Assembly: GCA_944386985.1 (NCBI GenBank)
Contig: CALXDD010000026.1
Span: 1-40,311, forward strand
Direction of reading: 5' to 3'
From: an uncultured Oscillospiraceae bacterium
GTDB taxonomy: Bacteria > Bacillota > Clostridia > Oscillospirales > Oscillospiraceae
Length of the DNA: 40,311 nt
Shown here: in pieces, positions 27,622-39,109 of the stretch
Numbering within the stretch: the stretch's first letter is position 1
Layout: each line of letters opens with the position of its first letter
Position numbers and translations under genes: made by a program
The notes under the pieces: model-generated
What the model was told of the DNA's origin: nothing
The model's database searches: none
The model's input: the letters and a program-made list of their open reading frames with translations, nothing else

Positions 27622-29712
27622 TTACCGCACACCGAAAAGCAAGGCGCCATAAGTGGGGAAGGGCCAGTAGGACTCGGCGGTCATCAATTCCGCCTCGTCG
27701 GCGGCGGCCCGGAGACTGCGCATACGGGGCAGAATCTCGTCCCGGACGGCCACGGACTCAGCGGTAACGTCATCGTGAGTCAGTGTAAGCATGGCCTGCT
27801 CCAGATCGTCGGTACCGGCGGCAATGCGGTCGGTAAGGACGGAGAGCTTGCTCACAAGGCCGGTCTCATAGCTGAGAGCCAGATCCGGCTGCATGGCCTT
27901 CTTTTTGCCGGCAGACTCGGCAGTGGCGCTGGCGAAGGCCTCCACAGCGGGGAGAATCTCCTTGCGGGCCATGTCCACCATGGTCAGCGCTTCGATCTCC
28001 ACGGTTTTGCAGTAGTTTTCCAGCATGATCTCGCAGCGGCTCTTCAGCTCCGCCACGGAGAAGACCTTGTGGGCCGTCAGCATGGCTACGTTCTTCTCAT
28101 CGAGAAGCCTCGGCATGCAGTCGGGGGTGGTGGGCAGGTTGCTGAGCCCCCGGGTGGCGGCCTCCTTGAGCCAGGCGGCGTCATAGCCGTTGCCGTTGAA
28201 GATGATCCGCTTGTGCCGGGCGATCACGTCCTTGAGGATGTGCTGCACCTCGGCGGGGGCGTCCGCCGCCCCTTCCAGCCGGTCGGCATACTGGCGGAGA
28301 GATTCCGCCACGGCGCTGTTGAGCATCATGTTGGCACAGGCGATGGAGTTGGAGGAACCCAGCATCCGGAACTCAAATTTGTTGCCGGTAAAGGCAAAGG
28401 GGGAGGTGCGGTTGCGGTCGGTGGTGTCCTTGGGGAACCGGGGCAGGGCGTGGACGCCCAGCTTCATCTGGGCCCCTTCTGCAGCGGTGTAGTCCTCGCC
28501 GCTCTCAATGGCCTTGAGGATGGCGGTGAGCTCGTCGCCCAGGAAAATGGACACCACGGCGGGGGGCGCCTCGTTGGCCCCCAGGCGGTGGTCGTTGCCG
28601 GCGGTGGCCACGGACAGACGCAGCAGATCCTGATAGTCGTCCACGGCCTGAATCACAGCGCAGAGGAAAAGCAGGAAACGGGTGTTTTCATAGGGCTTCT
28701 CTCCCGGGGAGAGGAGGTTCACGCCGGTATCGGTGGACATGGACCAGTTATTGTGCTTGCCGGAGCCGTTGACCCCGGCAAAGGGCTTCTCGTGGAGCAG
28801 GCACACCAGGCCGTGCTTGGCGGCCACCTTCTGCATGATCTCCATGGTCAGCTGGTTGTGGTCCGTGGCGATGTTGGTGGTGGTGTAGATGGGGGCCAAC
28901 TCATGCTGAGCAGGGGCCACCTCGTTGTGCTCCGTCTTGGCCAGGATGCCCAGTTTCCACAGCTCCTGGTCCAGATCCGCCATATAGGCGGCTACCCGGG
29001 GCTTGATGGTGCCGAAGTAGTGGTCATCCAGCTCCTGGCCCTTGGGGGGACGGGCGCCGAAGAGGGTGCGGCCGGTGTAGATGAGGTCCTTGCGCTTATT
29101 ATAAAGCTCCCGGTCCACCAGGTAATACTCCTGCTCAGGTCCCACGGAGGTGCGGACGCAGGTAGTCTCCGTATCCCCCAGCAGCCGCAGTACCCGCATG
29201 GCCTGCTTGTTCAGAGCCTCCATGGACCGAAGCAAAGGGGTCTTCTTGTCCAGAGCCTCGCCGCCGTAGGAGCAGAAGGCGGTGGGGATGTACAGGGTGT
29301 TGTCTTTAATAAAGGCGTAGGAGGTGGGGTCCCATGCGGTATAGCCCCGGGCCTCAAAGGTGGCCCGCAGACCGCCGGAGGGGAAGGAGGAGGCGTCGGG
29401 CTCGCCTTTGATCAGCTCCTTGCCGGAGAATTCCATGATCACCCGACCGTCGGGAGCGGGGGAGATAAAGCTGTCGTGCTTTTCTGCCGTGACGCCGGTC
29501 ATAGGCTGGAACCAGTGGGTAAAGTGGGTGGCGCCCTGCTCTACAGCCCAGTCCTTCATGGCGGAGGCCACCGCGTTGGCCACAGACAGGTCCAAAGGAG
29601 CATTTTCCTCCATGGTCTTGCGCAGAGACCGGTAGACGTTCTCCGGAAGCCTTGCCTTCATGATCCGATCGTCAAACACCATGCTGCCGAAATATTCCGG
29701 TACGGTTGTCAT
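27622..29712 (-). CDS. glnN: Type III glutamine synthetase (GlnN)
   Basis: This ATP-dependent enzyme makes glutamine from glutamate and ammonia. The length of 696 residues and the motifs [41 protein letters not shown] and [13 protein letters not shown] are those of the large type III family found in Bacteroides and Clostridia, with a long C-terminal helical part (ending [14 protein letters not shown]). It is a different family branch from the glnA gene 3.6 kb away. The ribosome site (AAAGGGTG) is weak. Its leader can form two competing hairpins, so expression is probably controlled by early termination. purF follows after 224 bases. Confidence 0.96.
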
Positions 29713-29730: not shown

Positions 29731-29786
29731 GAAAATATAAAGAGACGACGGCGCAGGGACCACCTGGTCCAAGACGCCGTCGTCTT
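29731..29786 (-). promoter_or_regulatory. glnN leader: terminator with competing 5' hairpin
   Basis: On the minus strand AGACGACGGCG (29785-29775) pairs with CGCCGTCGTCT (29753-29743) and is followed by the U-rich CTTTATATTTTC, a terminator just before the glnN ribosome site. An inner stem GGACCA/TGGTCC lies between. The 5' arm can instead fold on itself as AAGACG-ACGG-CGTCTT (29786-29771), which would block the terminator. Confidence 0.65.
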
Positions 29787-29797
29787 TCGATGCCATT

Positions 29798-29826
29798 ACG
29801 ATACACGGATTTTTTGTTGCCGTCAA
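29798..29826 (-). promoter_or_regulatory. Probable glnN promoter
   Basis: On the minus strand TTGACG (29826-29821) and TATCGT (29803-29798) are separated by 17 bases. Transcription would start near 29791, directly before the leader hairpins. Confidence 0.55.
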
Positions 29827-29882
29827 TGGGCGAAACGTCAAAATACAGAAAGATTGCGAAAGGGAATTTGTGGAGATTTCCG

Positions 29883-29912
29883 TTGACAGCGGACAGGTGT
29901 TCATAGTAGAGT
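29883..29912 (+). promoter_or_regulatory. Probable promoter of the glutamate synthase operon
   Basis: A consensus TTGACA (29883-29888) and TAGAGT (29907-29912) are separated by 18 bases. Transcription would start near 29919, at the first base of the leader hairpin. Confidence 0.6.
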
Positions 29913-29916
29913 ATTG

Positions 29917-29977
29917 GTATAAACAAGGATGTTTATGTAAGAGGGGCATTGCGCCCTCTGCGTAAATATCCTTTTTT
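29917..29977 (+). promoter_or_regulatory. ANTAR-type antiterminator/terminator leader of the glutamate synthase operon
   Basis: ATAAAC and GTTTAT (29919-29936) form a stem with hexaloop AAGGAT, having A at position 1 and G at position 4 as in known ANTAR targets; two G-U pairs can extend it. The 3' part GGATGTTTAT (29927-29936) can instead pair with GTAAATATCC (29962-29971) over ten bp, enclosing AGAGGG/CCCTCT, and is followed by six Ts: an intrinsic terminator. The two folds exclude each other. An ANTAR protein is encoded at the operon end. Confidence 0.7.
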
Positions 29978-30002
29978 CTTTAACCAAAAGGTGGTGACGG
30001 AT

Positions 30003-31097
30003 GTGAAGCAATTGGAAGGCCAGACGCGCATTCCCTCCGGCTGCGCCATTTCCGCTGTCATTTCCCGGGAAGGACGGGGCATGACCGGCGAGGGCATCAT
30101 TGAGAGCATGCGCCCTATGCGGGAGCGGTCCAACGGACTGGGGGGCGGCTTCGCCGGCTACGGTATTTATCCCGACTACCGGGATTTTTTTGCCATCCAT
30201 CTCTTTTTTGACGACAACAGCTGCCGCTTGGAGTGCGAGAAATTCCTCAAGGAGCGGTTCGATGTGGTGTGGGCGGAGGAGATCCCGGTGCGAAAGCTGC
30301 CGGAGATCACCGACGAGCCTCTGATCTGGCGGTATTTTGCCACGCCCCTCCAGTCCGCCCTCCGCTCCATGCAGGTGGACGAAAACACCTTTGTGGCCAG
30401 ATGTGTTCTGAAGATCAATGTGGCCCTGAAGGGCTGCTATGTGTTCTCCAGCGGCAAGAATATGGGCATTTTCAAGGCGGCGGGCTACCCCGAGGACGTG
30501 GGCCGGTTCTACCGTTTAGAGGAGTACGAGGCCTATGCCTGGACGGCCCACGGCCGATACCCCACCAACACTCCCGGCTGGTGGGGCGGCGCCCACCCCT
30601 TCGGCTTTCTGGACTACTCCGTGGTCCACAACGGGGAGATCTCCTCCTACGACGCCAACCGCCGCTTCATCGAGATGTTCGGCTACGCATGCACCCTCCA
30701 GACCGACACGGAGGTGATGGCCTACATCGCCGACTACCTCCTGCGCCGCCAGGGCCTCACTTTAGAGGAGACGGCCTCGGTGATTGCGGCCCCCTTCTGG
30801 AGTACCATCGGCACCAAGCCGGAGCGGGAGAAGCGGCAGCTGAGCTATCTGCGGGCCATGTTCTCCGGCCTTCTGCTCACAGGGCCTTTCTCCATTGTCC
30901 TGGGCTTTACCGGGGGGCTCATGGCCCTCAACGACCGTCTGAAGCTTCGGAGCATGGTGGTGGGGGAGAAAAGAGATCTCACCTTTATCGCCAGTGAGGA
31001 GGCTGCCATCCGGGCTATGGAGCCGGAGGCGGAGAACATCTGGGCGCCTGCCGGCGGCGAGCCGGTGATCATCCGGGTGAGAGAGGGGGCGTACTGA
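30003..31097 (+). CDS. Glutamate synthase, glutamine amidotransferase subunit (class II)
   Basis: The 364-residue product is a stand-alone Ntn amidotransferase of the glutamate synthase type, which frees ammonia from glutamine for the synthase subunit encoded next. The nucleophile is Cys14 in RIPSGCAIS and must be exposed by removal of the first residues. Further family motifs are WTAHGRYPTNTPGWWGGAHP, VHNGEIS and TDTEVMAY. No ATG start exists in frame: the GTG at 30003 is preferred, with AAAGGTGG at suitable distance; a TTG at 29949 and GTGs at 29991/29994 are in frame too, but the TTG lies inside the leader hairpin. The next gene overlaps by one base (TGATG). Confidence 0.9.
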   Translation: MKQLEGQTRIPSGCAISAVISREGRGMTGEGIIESMRPMRERSNGLGGGFAGYGIYPDYRDFFAIHLFFDDNSCRLECEKFLKERFDVVWAEEIPVRKLPEITDEPLIWRYFATPLQSALRSMQVDENTFVARCVLKINVALKGCYVFSSGKNMGIFKAAGYPEDVGRFYRLEEYEAYAWTAHGRYPTNTPGWWGGAHPFGFLDYSVVHNGEISSYDANRRFIEMFGYACTLQTDTEVMAYIADYLLRRQGLTLEETASVIAAPFWSTIGTKPEREKRQLSYLRAMFSGLLLTGPFSIVLGFTGGLMALNDRLKLRSMVVGEKRDLTFIASEEAAIRAMEPEAENIWAPAGGEPVIIRVREGAY

Positions 31098-32602
31098 TGC
31101 AGGTGAACTATCTCTATCCTGAATTTGAGGTGATCCGCAGCGCGGAGCGGTGTACCAACTGCCGTCTGTGCGAGAAGCAGTGCGCCAACGGGGTCCACCG
31201 CTACGACGAGGCCCACAAGCGGATGGTCAGCGACGAGGCGAAATGCGTCGACTGCCAGCGGTGCGTGGCCACCTGCCCTACCCGGGCGCTGAAAATTGTC
31301 AAGAGCAGCTGTACCCTCCGGGAAAACGGCAACTGGAGCGGCGACGCTATCCGGGAGATCTACAAGCAGGCGGCCAGCGGCGGCATGCTGCTGTCCTCCA
31401 TGGGAAGTCCCGGCAAGCTGCCGGTGTACTGGGACCGGCTGCTGCTGAATGCCTCCCAGGTGACGAACCCGCCCATCGATCCCCTGCGGGAGCCTATGGA
31501 GACCCGGACCTTTTTAGGGAAAAAGCCGGAGAAGGTCCGCCGCAATGCCGACGGCACGCTGGACTGCACCCTGCCTCCCCAGCTGGAGCTGAGCATGCCG
31601 GTACTGTTCTCCGGCATGAGCTACGGCTCCATCAGCTACAACGCCCATGAGAGCCTGGCACGGGCGGCGGAGCGGCTGGGCATCTACTACAACACCGGTG
31701 AGGGCGGTCTCCACGAGAATTTTTACCGCTACGGCCGCAATACCATCGTCCAGGTGGCCTCCGGCCGCTTCGGCGTCCACAAGGCCTATCTGCAGGCCGG
31801 CGCCGCCATTGAGATCAAAATGGGCCAGGGGGCCAAGCCGGGTATCGGCGGCCACCTGCCGGGGAACAAGCTGGTGGGGGATGTGTCCAGGACCAGAATG
31901 GTGCCGGAGGGGTGCGATGCGATCTCCCCGGCGCCCCACCACGACATCTACTCCATTGAGGACCTGCGGCAGCTGGTGTCCTCCCTGAAGGAGACCACAG
32001 AGTACCGCCTGCCGGTGATCGTGAAGGTGGCCGCCGTCCACAACATCTCCGCCATCGCCAGCGGTATCGCCCGCAGCGGGGCGGACATTATCGCCATCGA
32101 CGGCTTCCGGGGCGGCACCGGCGCGGCCCCCACCCGCATCCGGGACAACGTGGGCATCCCCATTGAACTGGCTCTGGCCGCAGTGGACCGCCGGCTGAGG
32201 GAGGAGGGTATCCGCAACCAAGTGTCCCTGGTGGTGGGCGGCAGCATCCGCAGTGCCGCCGACGTGGTGAAGGCAGTGGCCCTGGGGGCGGACGCCTGCT
32301 ATGTGGCCACGGCGGCCATGATCGCCATGGGCTGCCACCTCTGCCGCACCTGCCAGAGCGGTCTTTGCAACTGGGGCATCGCCACCCAGCGGCCGGAGCT
32401 GGTGAAGCGGCTGGACCCGGAGGAGGGCAGCGAGCGCCTGGTACGGCTGATGACCGCCTGGAAGCATGAGATCCGGGAGTTCATGGGCAGCATGGGTATC
32501 AACTCCATCGAGGCCCTTCGGGGCAACCGGCTTATGCTCCGGGGCGTGGGCCTCAACGAGAAGGAACTGGAAATTTTGGGCGTGGCCCACGCGGGGGAGT
32601 AA
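31097..32602 (+). CDS. Glutamate synthase, ferredoxin/FMN synthase subunit
   Basis: This 501-residue protein joins an N-terminal 2x[4Fe-4S] ferredoxin domain (Cys19, 22, 25, 29 and Cys50, 53, 56, 60) to the FMN-binding (beta/alpha)8 synthase domain with MGQGAKPGIGGHLPG, IDGFRGGTGAAPT and VGGSIRSAADVVKA, and a C-terminal cysteine cluster (Cys413, 416, 419, 424) for the 3Fe-4S site. It makes glutamate from 2-oxoglutarate and ammonia. No GltD-type NADPH subunit is encoded nearby, so electrons probably arrive by ferredoxin through the fused domain. This is the archaeal/clostridial split form of GltB. Confidence 0.94.
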   Translation: MQVNYLYPEFEVIRSAERCTNCRLCEKQCANGVHRYDEAHKRMVSDEAKCVDCQRCVATCPTRALKIVKSSCTLRENGNWSGDAIREIYKQAASGGMLLSSMGSPGKLPVYWDRLLLNASQVTNPPIDPLREPMETRTFLGKKPEKVRRNADGTLDCTLPPQLELSMPVLFSGMSYGSISYNAHESLARAAERLGIYYNTGEGGLHENFYRYGRNTIVQVASGRFGVHKAYLQAGAAIEIKMGQGAKPGIGGHLPGNKLVGDVSRTRMVPEGCDAISPAPHHDIYSIEDLRQLVSSLKETTEYRLPVIVKVAAVHNISAIASGIARSGADIIAIDGFRGGTGAAPTRIRDNVGIPIELALAAVDRRLREEGIRNQVSLVVGGSIRSAADVVKAVALGADACYVATAAMIAMGCHLCRTCQSGLCNWGIATQRPELVKRLDPEEGSERLVRLMTAWKHEIREFMGSMGINSIEALRGNRLMLRGVGLNEKELEILGVAHAGE

Positions 32603-32614
32603 GGAGGGAAGGCC

Positions 32615-33337
32615 ATGCAGTATATCAACGCAACAGAACTGGAGGCCAGAGCCCTCAACGAGACCATCCGCAATTGCCGGGAGGACTGCGAGATCACCAA
32701 CTGTCTGGGCCAGCGCTTCATCGGCGCGGGGCTGAGCCGCCGGAAGCTTTCGATCTACGGCGTTCCCGGCAACGCTTTGGGCGCCTATCTGGACGGTGCC
32801 GAGATCGAGGTGAACGGCAACGCTCAGGATGCGGTGGGGGACACTATGAATGCCGGGACCATCGTGGTCCACGGCAGCATCGGCGACACCGCGGGCTACG
32901 CCATGCGGGGCGGGTCCATCTACGTCCGGGACAGCGCCGGCTACCGGGCGGGCGTCCACATGAAGGCCTATCAGGAAAAGTTGCCGGTACTGGTCATCGG
33001 CGGACGGGCGGGCAGCTTTTTAGGGGAGTACCAGGCGGGAGGGATCATCCTGGTGCTGGGACTCCACACCGACGGCAAGCCCATCACCGGCTATTTCCCC
33101 TGCACGGGCATGCACGGAGGGAAGGTGTTCCTCCGCGACTGCTGCAAGAACGTCCGGTTCCCCGGGCAGGTCACTGCCCGAAGGGCGAAGGCGGCGGAGC
33201 TGGAGGAGATTCGCCCCTATGTGGAGGAATACTGCCGCCTTTTCGGCGGCGATGCGGCGGAACTTCTGAAGGGTCCCTTCACCCTGGTGACCCCGGACAG
33301 CAGCAACCCCTACCAACAGATGTATGTGGCCAACTGA
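32615..33337 (+). CDS. Glutamate synthase GXGXG-domain subunit
   Basis: The 240-residue product is the right-handed beta-helix (GXGXG) domain that forms the C-terminal structural part of large GltB proteins, here on its own gene. The repeated Gly pattern is seen in GNALGAYLDGAEIEVNGNAQ, AVGDTMNAGTIVVHGSIGD and TAGYAMRGGSIYVRDSAGY. It has no catalytic site and completes the split synthase. AAGGAGG precedes the ATG, 12 bases after the previous stop. Confidence 0.93.
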   Translation: MQYINATELEARALNETIRNCREDCEITNCLGQRFIGAGLSRRKLSIYGVPGNALGAYLDGAEIEVNGNAQDAVGDTMNAGTIVVHGSIGDTAGYAMRGGSIYVRDSAGYRAGVHMKAYQEKLPVLVIGGRAGSFLGEYQAGGIILVLGLHTDGKPITGYFPCTGMHGGKVFLRDCCKNVRFPGQVTARRAKAAELEEIRPYVEEYCRLFGGDAAELLKGPFTLVTPDSSNPYQQMYVAN

Positions 33338-33350
33338 GAGGAGGCACGCT

Positions 33351-34553
33351 ATGAACTACACAGCCGATGAGGTGCTGCAGTACACGGAGGAGGAGAACAT
33401 CAAGTTCATCCGCCTGGCCTTCTGCGACGTCTACGGAAAACAAAAGAATATCTCCATCATGCCGGGGGAGCTGGCCCGGGCCTTTGACATTGGCGTGGCC
33501 ATCGACGCCTCCGCCATCGCCGGCTTTGGAGGGGAGGTGCGGTCGGACCTGTTTCTCCACCCGGACCCCAGCACCCTGTCCTCCCTGCCCTGGAGGCCGG
33601 AGAACGGCGGCGTGGTGCGGATGTACTGCGACATCTCCCACCCCGACGGCCGCCCCTTTGAGGCCGACACCCGCCGCATTCTGAAGACGGCGGTGGCGGA
33701 GGGAGAGGCGGCAGGCTACCGCTTTGCCATCGGCTCAGAACTGGAGTTCTATCTCTTCCGGACCGACGAGGCGGGACGGCCTACCCAGGAGCCCTGGGAC
33801 CAGGCGGGCTACATGGACGTGGCGCCTTTAGACAAGTGCGAGAACATCCGGCGGGAGGTGTGCCTGACCCTGGAGCAGATGGGCATCTATCCCGAGAGCT
33901 CCCACCACGAGGAGGGGCCGGGCCAAAACGAGATCGACTTCCGCTACTCCGACCCTCTCACCGCGGCGGACAACGCCCTCACCTTCCGCAACGTGGTGGA
34001 GACCATCGCCGCCCGCAATGGCCTCTGGGCGGACTTCTCTCCCAAGCCGCTGAAGGCCCACCCCGGCAGCGGACTCCACATCAACCTCTCCGTCTCCGGC
34101 GGGGAGGATCCCCTGCCCGCGGTGATCGCCGGGGTGCTGGACCACGTCCGGGACATGACTGCTTTCCTCAACCCTCTGGAGGCATCCTATGAGCGCTTGG
34201 GCAGCAGGAAGGCCCCGGGGTATGTCACCTGGTCCCCGGAGAACCGGTCTCAGCTTATCCGCATTCCCGCCGCCAGCGGCCTCTACCGCCGGGCGGAGCT
34301 GCGCTCCCCGGATCCGGCGGCCAACCCCTATATCGCCTTTGCCCTGCTGCTCTACGCGGGACTGGACGGCATCCGCCGGGAGCTCTATCTGCCGACGCCC
34401 GCCAATCTGAACCTCTATAACGCCCCTGCCCAGGTGCTGGAGCAGTACCGCCGTCTTCCCGCCACCCGCATGGAGGCGGTGGCGGCGGCCTCGGCCAGCC
34501 CCTTTATCCAAACATGTCTTCCCGCCGCCGTGGTGGCGGCGTACTGCCGGTAA
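33351..34553 (+). CDS. glnA: Type I glutamine synthetase, short form (GlnA)
   Basis: The 400-residue protein has the type I layout: a beta-grasp domain (1-about 95) and the catalytic domain with metal/substrate motifs SELEFYLF, HHEEGPGQNEIDFRY, HPGSGLHINLS, the Arg in WSPENRSQLIRIP and RAELRSPDPAANPY. It is about 40 residues shorter than Bacillus GlnA. The frame opens nine codons earlier, but the ATG at 33351 has GAGAGGAGG in front. It closes the GS-GOGAT cycle with the three synthase genes before it. An ANTAR regulator gene follows after 28 bases, as in the glnA-nitR pair of solventogenic clostridia. Confidence 0.94.
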   Translation: MNYTADEVLQYTEEENIKFIRLAFCDVYGKQKNISIMPGELARAFDIGVAIDASAIAGFGGEVRSDLFLHPDPSTLSSLPWRPENGGVVRMYCDISHPDGRPFEADTRRILKTAVAEGEAAGYRFAIGSELEFYLFRTDEAGRPTQEPWDQAGYMDVAPLDKCENIRREVCLTLEQMGIYPESSHHEEGPGQNEIDFRYSDPLTAADNALTFRNVVETIAARNGLWADFSPKPLKAHPGSGLHINLSVSGGEDPLPAVIAGVLDHVRDMTAFLNPLEASYERLGSRKAPGYVTWSPENRSQLIRIPAASGLYRRAELRSPDPAANPYIAFALLLYAGLDGIRRELYLPTPANLNLYNAPAQVLEQYRRLPATRMEAVAAASASPFIQTCLPAAVVAAYCR

Positions 34554-34581: not shown

Positions 34582-35184
34582 ATGGTGTTCCAGGAACGCA
34601 CCTACGCTGTGCTCATCGTCTCCGCCGGTGAGCGCTTCAACAGCGCGCTGATGGGACTGCTGCCGGTGACGGACTTCTGGCCGGTGACCACAGTGAAGAG
34701 CGTGGCGGAGGCCCGTCGGAGGCTGGCGGAGCAGGACTACGACCTGGTGCTCATCAACGCCCCTCTGCCTGACGCCAGCGGGGAGCGGCTGGCGGTGGAG
34801 ATCTGCGGCGGCAGCGACGCCGGAGTGCTGCTTTTCGTCAAAAGCGAACTCTATGAGGAGGTCTACGCCAAGGTGACGGAGTACGGTGTGGTGACGGCTC
34901 CCAAACCCACCTCCTCGGCGGTGGCGGGCCAGTGCATCCGGGCTATGTGCGCCGCCCGGGAACGGCTTCGCCGTCTGGAGGCGAAGCAGCTGTCGGTGGA
35001 GGAGAAAATCCAGGAGATCCGTCTGGTGAACCGGGCCAAGTGGGCCCTGATCCAGTGCCTTGGCATGACGGAGCAGGAGGCCCACCGCTACCTGGAGAAG
35101 CAGGCCATGGACAACCGGATCTCCCGGAAAGAGGCGGCCCGGCGGGTACTGTCCACCTATCAGCAGACCGGAGGGGAGTCCTGA
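34582..35184 (+). CDS. ANTAR-domain antitermination regulator with degenerate receiver (NitR-like)
   Basis: The 200-residue protein has a receiver-like domain (about 1-125) and a C-terminal ANTAR RNA-binding domain (about 137-198; EEKIQEIRLVNRAKWALIQC, MTEQEAHRYLEKQAMD). ANTAR proteins bind paired hexaloop hairpins in nascent RNA and prevent terminators from forming. The receiver keeps a Lys-Pro (APKP) but has Asn59 where the phosphorylated Asp should be (LVLINAPLPD), and its N-terminal acidic pocket is missing (VSAGER), so it is unlikely to be switched by a kinase, and none is encoded nearby. The ATG follows AAGGAGGAGG. It ends the glutamate synthase/glnA operon; the operon leader holds a matching hairpin. 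Confidence 0.93.
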   Translation: MVFQERTYAVLIVSAGERFNSALMGLLPVTDFWPVTTVKSVAEARRRLAEQDYDLVLINAPLPDASGERLAVEICGGSDAGVLLFVKSELYEEVYAKVTEYGVVTAPKPTSSAVAGQCIRAMCAARERLRRLEAKQLSVEEKIQEIRLVNRAKWALIQCLGMTEQEAHRYLEKQAMDNRISRKEAARRVLSTYQQTGGES

Positions 35185-35212: not shown

Positions 35213-35248
35213 AAATCGACCATCTTGGAGAAGATGGTCGATTTTTTT
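35213..35248. terminator. Bidirectional terminator after the ANTAR gene
   Basis: AAATCGACCATCTT and AAGATGGTCGATTT form a perfect 14-bp stem with a GGAG loop, followed by TTTT on the plus strand; on the minus strand GTCTTTTTTTCC follows, so it also ends the leftward unit from the DUF421 gene. Confidence 0.95.
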
Positions 35249-37837: not shown

Positions 37838-37873
37838 GCAGATGAAAACCTGGTGCGAAAAGGGGAGGAGATT

Positions 37874-39109
37874 ATGAGGCAACTTCGGAAGCTGGCAGCC
37901 GGATTTTTGGCTGCCCTGATGCTCACCACAACGGTGTTGGCCGCTGCTGCGGATGTGCCCAAATCCAGCTGGGCCTACGAGCCGGTGTCCTATGTACTGG
38001 ACCGGGGGATCATGGAGACGGACAGTCAGGGGAACTTTGGTATCCAGGAGGAGATGTCCCGGGGTGAGTTTCTCTACAGCCTCTGGTGCGCCGCCGGACG
38101 GCCCGCGGCCTCCGGCGCCTCCTTTACCGATGTGGGCCGCGGCAGCCGCTACTACCAGGCGGTGAGCTGGGCGGTGGAGAAGAAAGTGGCCTCCGGCACC
38201 TCCGCTTCCACCTTTTCCCCCGGCAGTACGGTGACCCGGGAGCAGGCGTTCACCTTTTTGTGGAAGGCTCTGCCGGTGCTGGGACTGAAGCAGGAGAGCG
38301 GCGGCGCCCTCTCGGTGTTCCGGGACAGCGGCGATGTCAGCAGCTGGGCGCTTGCGGCGGTGAAGTCCCTGTACGCACAGGGGATCGTCACCGGCACCGA
38401 TGAGAACCGCCTGGAGCCCAGACGGACGGTGAAGCGGGGGGAGGCGGCCTCCCTCTTTTATGAGGTGCTGGGGAAGAAGCGGACCGCGGCAGCCTGGAGC
38501 TGGTTTGACGACGCGGTGTTCATCGGGGACTCCGTGTCTTTGAAGCTCAACTACTACGTCGCCAAGCAGCGGCAGAGCGACAGCGGCTACATGGGGACGG
38601 CCCAGTTCCTCACCTCCGGCAGTCTCGGCAGCGGCAACGCCCTGTGGGAGGTGAGCAGCAAGTCCGTGCATCCGGCGTACCAGGGGAAGAAGATGAAGCT
38701 GGAGGAGTCCGTTCCCCTCACCGGAGCAAAAAAGGTGTACGTTATGCTGGGGATGAATGACATTGGGGTGTACGGACCGGAGAAATCCGTCAAGAACCTG
38801 GAGACGCTTCTGGACCGGATCAAGGCCAAGGCCCCCGGCGTCACTTTCTATGTTCAGTCCGCCACGCCCATGTACAAGGGCGCGGAGAAAAAGGTGCTGA
38901 ACAACACGACACTGACGGAATATAACCGGCTGGTGAAGGAGCTGTGCCTGCGCCGGGGCTGGCACTATGTGGACGTGGCCTCGGTGCTCCAGGACGGGGA
39001 GGGCTATCTGCCCGCCTCCTACTGCAGCGACCGGGAGGGCATGGGGATCCACTTCACCGATACGGCCTGTGCCGTCTGGGTGAACTATCTCAGAACCCAC
39101 ACCAGCTGA
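37874..39109 (+). CDS. Cell-surface SGNH/GDSL hydrolase with S-layer homology repeats
   Basis: The 411-residue protein has a signal peptide (about 1-30), three S-layer homology repeats (about 30-200; WAYEPVSYVLDRGIM, YYQAVSWAVEKKVAS, WALAAVKSLYAQGIV) that would bind wall polymer, and a C-terminal SGNH esterase domain with Ser220 in FIGDSVS, Asn295 in MLGMNDIG and His393 in GIHFTD. The Asp expected three residues before the His is Met here, so the catalytic triad is uncertain. A GTG eight codons upstream is in frame, but the ATG has AGGGGAGGAG just before it. A DUF4358 lipoprotein gene follows after 14 bases. Likely an acyl-esterase on surface glycans; inference. Confidence 0.88.
   Translation: MRQLRKLAAGFLAALMLTTTVLAAAADVPKSSWAYEPVSYVLDRGIMETDSQGNFGIQEEMSRGEFLYSLWCAAGRPAASGASFTDVGRGSRYYQAVSWAVEKKVASGTSASTFSPGSTVTREQAFTFLWKALPVLGLKQESGGALSVFRDSGDVSSWALAAVKSLYAQGIVTGTDENRLEPRRTVKRGEAASLFYEVLGKKRTAAAWSWFDDAVFIGDSVSLKLNYYVAKQRQSDSGYMGTAQFLTSGSLGSGNALWEVSSKSVHPAYQGKKMKLEESVPLTGAKKVYVMLGMNDIGVYGPEKSVKNLETLLDRIKAKAPGVTFYVQSATPMYKGAEKKVLNNTTLTEYNRLVKELCLRRGWHYVDVASVLQDGEGYLPASYCSDREGMGIHFTDTACAVWVNYLRTHTS

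Follow-up and report, generated by a model that had tools for sequence, protein, structure and literature searches.

The systems closest to the locus described here are summarised from the available portions of each report. In Enterococcus faecalis, the targets of EutV/EutW carry a hairpin with a six-base loop having A at position 1 and G at position 4 (A1/G4), which overlaps the 5' base of a terminator. EutV requires both hexaloops of its target in vivo (PMC3369931, PMC8934654); the minimal ANTAR binding site has been redefined as one hexaloop, while both were kept for antitermination (PMC8934654). The working model of ANTAR antitermination needs two hexaloops, and by that model one should not suffice, though it does for binding in the structure paper (PMC8934654). 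In 2012, ANTAR targets, defined as dual hairpins of at least three pairs each, were predicted ahead of genes for glutamate and glutamine synthase (PMC3369931), and a later survey keeps the dual-hairpin definition (PMC8164766). Searches with a dual motif would miss leaders that have a single hexaloop.

ANTAR control of GS and GOGAT genes is already known. In Clostridium saccharobutylicum, NitR is described as inducing them by antitermination on nitrogen limitation (Stutz 2007; PMC6316151), and an antiterminator role has been suggested for the ANTAR protein at the GS-GOGAT cluster Clo1313_2030-2038 of Clostridium thermocellum (PMC4676874), where ANTAR, glnA, GOGAT genes and glnN share one neighbourhood (PMC4676874, PMC9888227). 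ANTAR proteins may also be controlled by sensors that are not kinases, as in AmiC-AmiR (PMC3369936) and NasS-NasT (PMC3795266). Finally, a feedback-inhibited GS serves as nitrogen sensor for the co-encoded regulator GlnR/TnrA (PMC9249791).

The locus studied here shares the A1/G4 hexaloop and a related ANTAR protein with the EutV/EutW system, the linkage of ANTAR and GS/GOGAT genes with the NitR cluster, and the grouping of ANTAR, glnA, GOGAT genes and glnN with C. thermocellum. It differs from the EutV/EutW targets in having one hexaloop at about +1, no phosphorylation site and no kinase among the listed operon neighbours. From the NitR cluster, as far as that is described, it would be set apart by a separate leader for the type III glnN gene and by a GlnA that is missing the flap Glu; and a leader RNA is described here, whereas the available portions of the C. 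thermocellum accounts (PMC4676874, PMC9888227) describe none. The candidate sensor, a partnership we propose by analogy with AmiC-AmiR, is a glutamine-synthetase-like protein, and in the GlnR/TnrA system the regulator binds DNA and the GS is an active enzyme with its flap Glu (PMC9249791). What appears to be new is the single +1 hexaloop, the glnN device and the wider set of leaders. Within the available portions of the literature, the NitR leaders of C. saccharobutylicum (Stutz 2007) lying outside the comparison, there was no recognised account of single-hexaloop +1 leaders or of a pseudo-GS partner. A natural, repeated leader with one hexaloop at about +1 makes the question of one or two hexaloops directly testable.

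Two divergent leaders between gltB and glnN

The window, that is, the whole stretch of 40,311 nucleotides analysed, comes from a draft genome of 2.99 Mb, in which it forms contig C26. Its + strand carries an operon in the order gltB-gltS-gxgxg-glnA-ANTAR, encoding the glutamate synthase glutamine-amidotransferase subunit (30003-31097, GTG start; PF00310, 1e-8), the central subunit with a 4Fe-4S domain (31097-32602; PF01645, 1e-136), the GXGXG subunit (32615-33337; PF01493, 2e-29), a short GlnA-like protein recognised by a profile match and residue comparison, with the flap Glu changed to Lys and a candidate sensor (33324-34553), and an ANTAR antiterminator with a pseudo-receiver in which Asn59 stands for the phospho-Asp (34582-35184; PF03861, 53 bits). 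An inverted repeat at 35213-35244 is the likely end of the operon; the terminator-like site there was listed on the - strand, and it is palindromic. On the - strand lies glnN, encoding a type III glutamine synthetase (27622-29712; PF12437, 4e-81); the genome has another gene for a type III glutamine synthetase outside the window (G000:C1:144267-144815, L341). Further along the window, positions 37853-39106 encode a protein that combines S-layer homology repeats with a GDSL-type lipase domain.

The sequence-only reading had reported a hexaloop antiterminator overlapping a terminator before gltB, and this observation is real. A promoter, TTGACA-N18-TAGAGT (29883-29912, + strand), matches the consensus at 10 of 12 positions and stands at a distance from the hairpin that is fixed in relatives. 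It places the +1 at about 29918-29920, so that the RNA would begin at the base of the hairpin; listed before as an odd point, this proved to be a conserved feature in relatives. The hairpin was found as described, with ATAAAC at 29919-29924, the loop AAGGAT at 29925-29930 and GTTTAT at 29931-29936, and its stem can be extended to eight pairs (29917-29938); the covariance model matched it at 29881-29939 with 28.6 bits. As for the intrinsic terminator (29925-29977), its presence was borne out by folding and by covariation of its arms, but the 16 bp assigned to its stem are too few: the predicted fold has 22 pairs with two single-base bulges and spans 29925-29973. The T-run at 29972-29977 comes next, and the GTG start at 30003 lies 25 nt beyond it, as had been noted. 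The hairpin and the terminator share 29925-29938 and are mutually exclusive, again in agreement with the earlier claim. With a free energy of -28.6 kcal/mol (z -6.8), the terminator was not equalled in stability by any of 200 shuffles, while the hairpin on its own reached -3.4 kcal/mol (z -3.7), 3 of 200 shuffles being equally stable. RNAfold draws it as seven pairs with a tetraloop, because A1 and U6 of AAGGAT can pair. Positions 1 and 6 can pair in both window loops, at 29925-29930 (A-U) and 29776-29781 (G-C), unlike in the common loop AAAGGC. Four promoter-like sites occur in the 6.9 kb scanned for promoters, against 1.5 in shuffles, and the window gave no Rfam match over the gathering cut-off.

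Set against the published definition of a dual-hexaloop target, the gltB leader has an A1/G4 hexaloop, AAGGAT, on a stem of at least three pairs, and it overlaps an intrinsic terminator, a feature used as a screen in Ramesh 2012 and optional there. It does not have two stem-loops joined by a linker, there being no space 5' of the hairpin. The second hairpin, at 29940-29959, indeed has no canonical hexaloop and is no more than the top of the terminator; in relatives, a second A1/G4 hexaloop at this place is not commoner than chance would give.

Several findings go beyond the earlier description. The broader regulon, the changed GlnA and the pseudo-receiver are treated below; a further one is that the divergent glnN gene carries the same device on the opposite strand. 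Its promoter, TTGACG-N17-TATCGT (29798-29826, - strand), matches the consensus at 9 of 12 positions. The hairpin AAGAC[GACGGC]GTCTT (29771-29786, - strand; covariance model match at 29767-29828, 32.9 bits) is a variant with G at position 1 of its loop GACGGC and hence departs from A1; the other retained G1 loops (L034, L036, L082, L084) all belong to the window's own family. The overlapping terminator (29743-29785, - strand), identified by the leader scan and the arm analysis, has a weak U-tract. A covariance model search of the window's own genome ranked these two leaders at the top, with 32.9 and 28.6 bits, the next match scoring 23.0. A scan of the reverse strand, tried as a negative control, was dropped: its matches, in 56/80 to 56/81 loci, are the leaders before glnN, and shuffles and a scan without a loop requirement took its place. 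Among 58 opposite-strand matches that a looser scan gave outside the window, 40 lay at most 500 nt from a recognised glnN start, 5 were further away and 13 came from loci without a recognised glnN. One glnN leader (L115) apparently holds two tandem hexaloop attenuators.

These features suggest, with a probability that we put at about 0.87, that the intergenic region contains two divergent transcription-attenuation switches, one for the gltB operon and one for glnN, which the operon's own ANTAR protein would open at the hexaloop. Each transcript would start with a small hairpin bearing a six-base loop. In the default state, the downstream terminator stem would take up this loop together with the 3' arm, and transcription would stop. 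An active ANTAR protein would grip the hexaloop as it emerges from the polymerase, so that the base of the terminator stem could not close, and the GS, GOGAT and ANTAR genes would be transcribed. Because the ANTAR gene lies within the operon, this would amount to positive autoregulation; the earlier interpretation, that the protein acts on the leader and autoregulates the gltB-glnA-ANTAR operon, is supported on sequence grounds. We infer binding and antitermination and, by analogy with NitR, induction under nitrogen limitation.

Leader architecture and covariation among relatives

At E <= 1e-3, the window ANTAR protein was matched in 36 of 60 relatives, with 22 at E <= 1e-15; in genomes of the same order, 162 of 297 had a match at E <= 1e-15, the window's own genome being counted in both sets. 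Judged by their ANTAR protein, the nearest named records are genomes of uncultured Oscillospiraceae, Ruminococcaceae and Clostridia, and several carry the label rumen. From the match lists, best matches first, 80 loci were taken. A glnA-like gene directly precedes ANTAR in 79 of them, as in the window operon, which agrees with the glnA-ANTAR linkage stated earlier for clostridia, and gltB genes and a divergent glnN are often present as well. Upstream of ANTAR, 58 of 81 loci, the window counted, combine a promoter with a hexaloop hairpin and a terminator that overlaps it; two of these (L130 and L136) are doubtful and were dropped from the 58. This recurrence argues that the gltB leader is not a product of chance. 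In its commonest form, the leader reads TTGACA-N17-TATAAT, about 7 nt, then RATGAGC[AAAGGC]GTTCATY.

In the 80 loci and the window, 121 leaders were scored: 59 on the opposite strand and 62 on the ANTAR strand, a class from a looser scan that is not purely made of gltB/glnA leaders, as it holds three matches downstream of ANTAR (L083, L085, L136). The promoter spacer is 17 in 108 of the 121, and the loop starts 13-17 nt past the -10 in 107. Given this fixed distance, the base of the stem falls at the expected transcription start. As a rule, then, these leaders have a single hexaloop at about +1, the start being predicted from the promoter. The leaders might alternatively be ordinary dual-hexaloop targets, the other hairpin lying upstream behind another promoter or being a non-canonical loop in the terminator top. 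This would agree with the published ANTAR targets, which are defined with two stem-loops, and the pentaloop ATTGC had been put forward earlier as such a loop; but the promoter at a fixed short distance in those 107 leaders speaks against it, and a second A1/G4 hexaloop was seen in 6 of 116 leaders (the 121 minus five matches in L093, L096 and L136) against 3.9 (sd 1.9) in shuffles, which is not above chance. We consider this alternative very unlikely.

Both the antiterminator and the terminator arms covary, a point on which the sequence-only reading depended. For the hairpin, 46 reference leaders were reduced to 43 by removing the ANTAR-strand matches L083, L085 and L130 by hand. In these 43, pairing was 90.7% against 71.0% in shuffles, with 80 doubly changed cells against 33; five of seven stem pairs had double changes (4.3 in shuffles), and the covariation score was 0.641 against 0.280 in shuffles and at most 0.205 when the stem was slid. 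Much of this double change is due to there being two types of stem, one gltB-like and one glnN-like, and the shuffles ignore relatedness. In a second set, made up of the 102 matches that 80 named-contig loci yielded at E values of up to 0.05, pairing was 92.3%, with 205 double changes against 91, in an alignment fitted to the model; 53 of the 80 loci had a leader at E <= 0.0022. For the terminator arms, 91.7% pairing was found in 59 ANTAR-strand leaders (75.8% in shuffles; 73 double changes against 20.5) and 88.2% in 57 opposite-strand leaders (70.2%; 74 against 25.2).

The loop bases also pair within the terminator. Loop conservation might reflect terminator pairing and no more, the hairpin and terminator being an attenuator that acts constitutively, or a 5' element for RNA stability, to which no protein binds; the weakness of the isolated hairpin would agree with this reading. 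Yet within the terminator loop position 4 faces C or U, and the loop keeps its G in the leaders where it faces U (14 of 58 and 23 of 52), these having been preselected for G4. The fairer test of G4 is for this reason an unbiased scan, run without a loop requirement: it covered 86 intergenic sides, of which 74 had a promoter-proximal hairpin overlapping a terminator. Hexaloops made up 57 of the 74 hairpins, with A1 in 56 and G4 in 55 of the 57; the window gltB loop, drawn as a tetraloop, is among the 17 others, and the window glnN side was missed because its promoter scores 9/12. Together with the co-occurrence of the leader with the window ANTAR type (see below), the retention of G4 makes a protein-free attenuator very improbable, and favours a switch opened by an ANTAR protein.

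The ANTAR protein and its GlnA-like neighbour

Scores for the ANTAR domain (PF03861) were 53-56 bits against a curated cut-off of 27.3, and the AlphaFold model of the protein had a pLDDT of 91.2. Its best solved neighbours by E-value were Rv1626, EutV, EutV with RNA (TM 0.70) and AmiR (0.61). We mapped the RNA contacts of EutV, as listed in the available portion of PMC8934654, onto 71 ANTAR proteins by alignment. Lys149, Glu160 and Met172 are kept in 71/71; Lys143 and Lys147 are replaced by Arg in 68/71 and 65/71; and Tyr164 is replaced by His in 70/71, AmiR, which is close in fold, likewise having His at this G4-stacking site. Arg142 is not kept, being Ile in the window protein. The phospho-Asp is Asn in 67 of the 71 and Asp in three, and it is Asn in 39/39 proteins of alignment A4. 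As the RNA contacts are mostly kept and the phospho-Asp is lost, these residues suggest that RNA reading is likely to have been kept and control by phosphorylation to have been lost. The pseudo-receiver of this protein contrasts with the second ANTAR protein of the genome (L002, G000:C1 ~16036), which has a full receiver domain and an adjoining gene for a PdtaS-type histidine kinase.

Control without phosphorylation could be exerted by the GlnA-like neighbour: less firmly, we propose from residue changes, adjacency and the analogy with AmiC and AmiR that this pseudo-synthetase may sense glutamine and sequester the ANTAR protein. The flap Glu, Glu304 of B. subtilis, is a catalytic residue of glutamine synthetase (PMC9249791, PMC7948447). 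In the window protein, the flap reads LGSRKAP in place of LVPGYEAP; this Glu is replaced by Lys there and in 60 of 74 GlnA proteins, and kept in 7 of 74. For comparison, 25 genomes were chosen among those without a strong match to the window ANTAR protein; 18 had GS matches, 21 in total, all with the flap Glu and 17 with RLVPGYEAP. Among the 21 is L343, which has RLGTYEAP and looks like the ANTAR-linked kind.

An even chance should be given to the alternative that GlnA is a working glutamine or amine ligase, control of the ANTAR protein then falling to PII, to a small molecule or to nothing more than its own amount. GlnA has retained most of its other active-site residues, the D50-loop Asp being present in 70 of 74 proteins, and gamma-glutamylmethylamide synthetase, as described in the available portion of PMC7948447, is an active enzyme that lacks the flap Glu and works through another residue. 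Since an enzyme can work without the flap Glu, loss of GlnA activity is probable at best. Against a ligase speak the D50-loop Asp itself, which gamma-glutamylmethylamide synthetase has also lost and which is kept here, the position of GlnA beside ANTAR in 79 of 80 loci, and the two type III synthetases of the genome, which are available for the chemistry. Taken as a whole, a glutamine regulon of gut Clostridia in which single-hexaloop +1 leaders, a phosphorylation-independent ANTAR protein and a dead-GS sensor act together, with a co-controlled type III synthetase doing the chemistry, is a tentative picture to which we give clearly less than even odds.

Occurrence of the leader and its downstream genes

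R1, a covariance model that spans the promoter and the hairpin, was run on the 297 genomes of the same order and, with stricter filters, matched 137 of them at E <= 3e-4. It matched 116 of 162 genomes with the window ANTAR type and 21 of 135 without it (Fisher 5e-23), a contingency blurred by the fact that the class without this type also holds ANTAR proteins: of the 21 leader genomes in it, 5 have another ANTAR match and 16 have none. The 46 ANTAR-type genomes without an R1 match at the cut include the window's own (E 6.6e-4). It could be argued that the genome's other ANTAR protein (C1:16036), with its full ANTAR match, good receiver domain and PdtaS-type kinase alongside, regulates these leaders. 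Across genomes, though, the leaders track the glnA-linked ANTAR type, which is itself in the same operon, and we regard regulation by the other protein as scarcely credible compared with regulation by the operon-encoded one.

From the match lists, 39 usable further leaders were picked by hand, the leader being the R1 match, with terminators checked for some. The first gene, assigned by blastp and clustering with one member per class named by NCBIfam except for glnN and gltB, could be determined in 31 of the 39, and all 31 are ammonium/glutamine or purine-pyrimidine genes: glnN (6), gltB, pyrG and amtB (4 each), carA (3), gdhA, purC and purF (2 each), and asnB, asnA, guaA and purA (1 each). In the other 8, no clear gene lay within reach. 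The asnA and purA leaders were seen exclusively in genomes that lack an ANTAR match (G051, G106). One glnN leader (G251) and one gdhA leader (G181) are likewise from such genomes, and the asnB leader belongs to a genome whose ANTAR match is of another type (G058). Several near relatives have a leader directly 3' of the ANTAR gene, before a gene start that matches the pyrG of L215. Raised levels of glutamine-using enzymes under low glutamine would suit such a wider regulon, and the leaders suggest that gut-type Clostridia have a nitrogen regulon, possibly with a pseudo-enzyme as its sensor. A search of the window's own genome for a large regulon found none: the two window leaders stand out, together with one weaker paralogous copy. 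This third leader (G000:C9:55561-55622, L146) is close to the glnN leader, has a hairpin with one mismatch, and lies ahead of a gene for an M20-family peptidase that has GntR and amidohydrolase genes next to it.

The gdhA leader of G181 (L247), a genome of 1.2 Mb that lacks an ANTAR match, has a shortened loop, AGAGC. This change would fit decay once the ANTAR protein had been lost, but other leaders of ANTAR-less genomes look intact. Sister genera (G017, G030, G032) have an ordinary glnA beside a weak ANTAR match, the adjacency being taken from coordinates; a regular-expression search for an ANTAR pattern downstream of sister-genus glnA genes gave no match. Leaders with a single hexaloop-like hairpin near the promoter were also seen at glnA genes that encode the flap Glu (L347, L349, L350, L352, L356, L357, L361-L363), perhaps the ancestral state. 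The loops of these sister-genus glnA leaders are AAAGGC, GAAGGC or AAAGAC.
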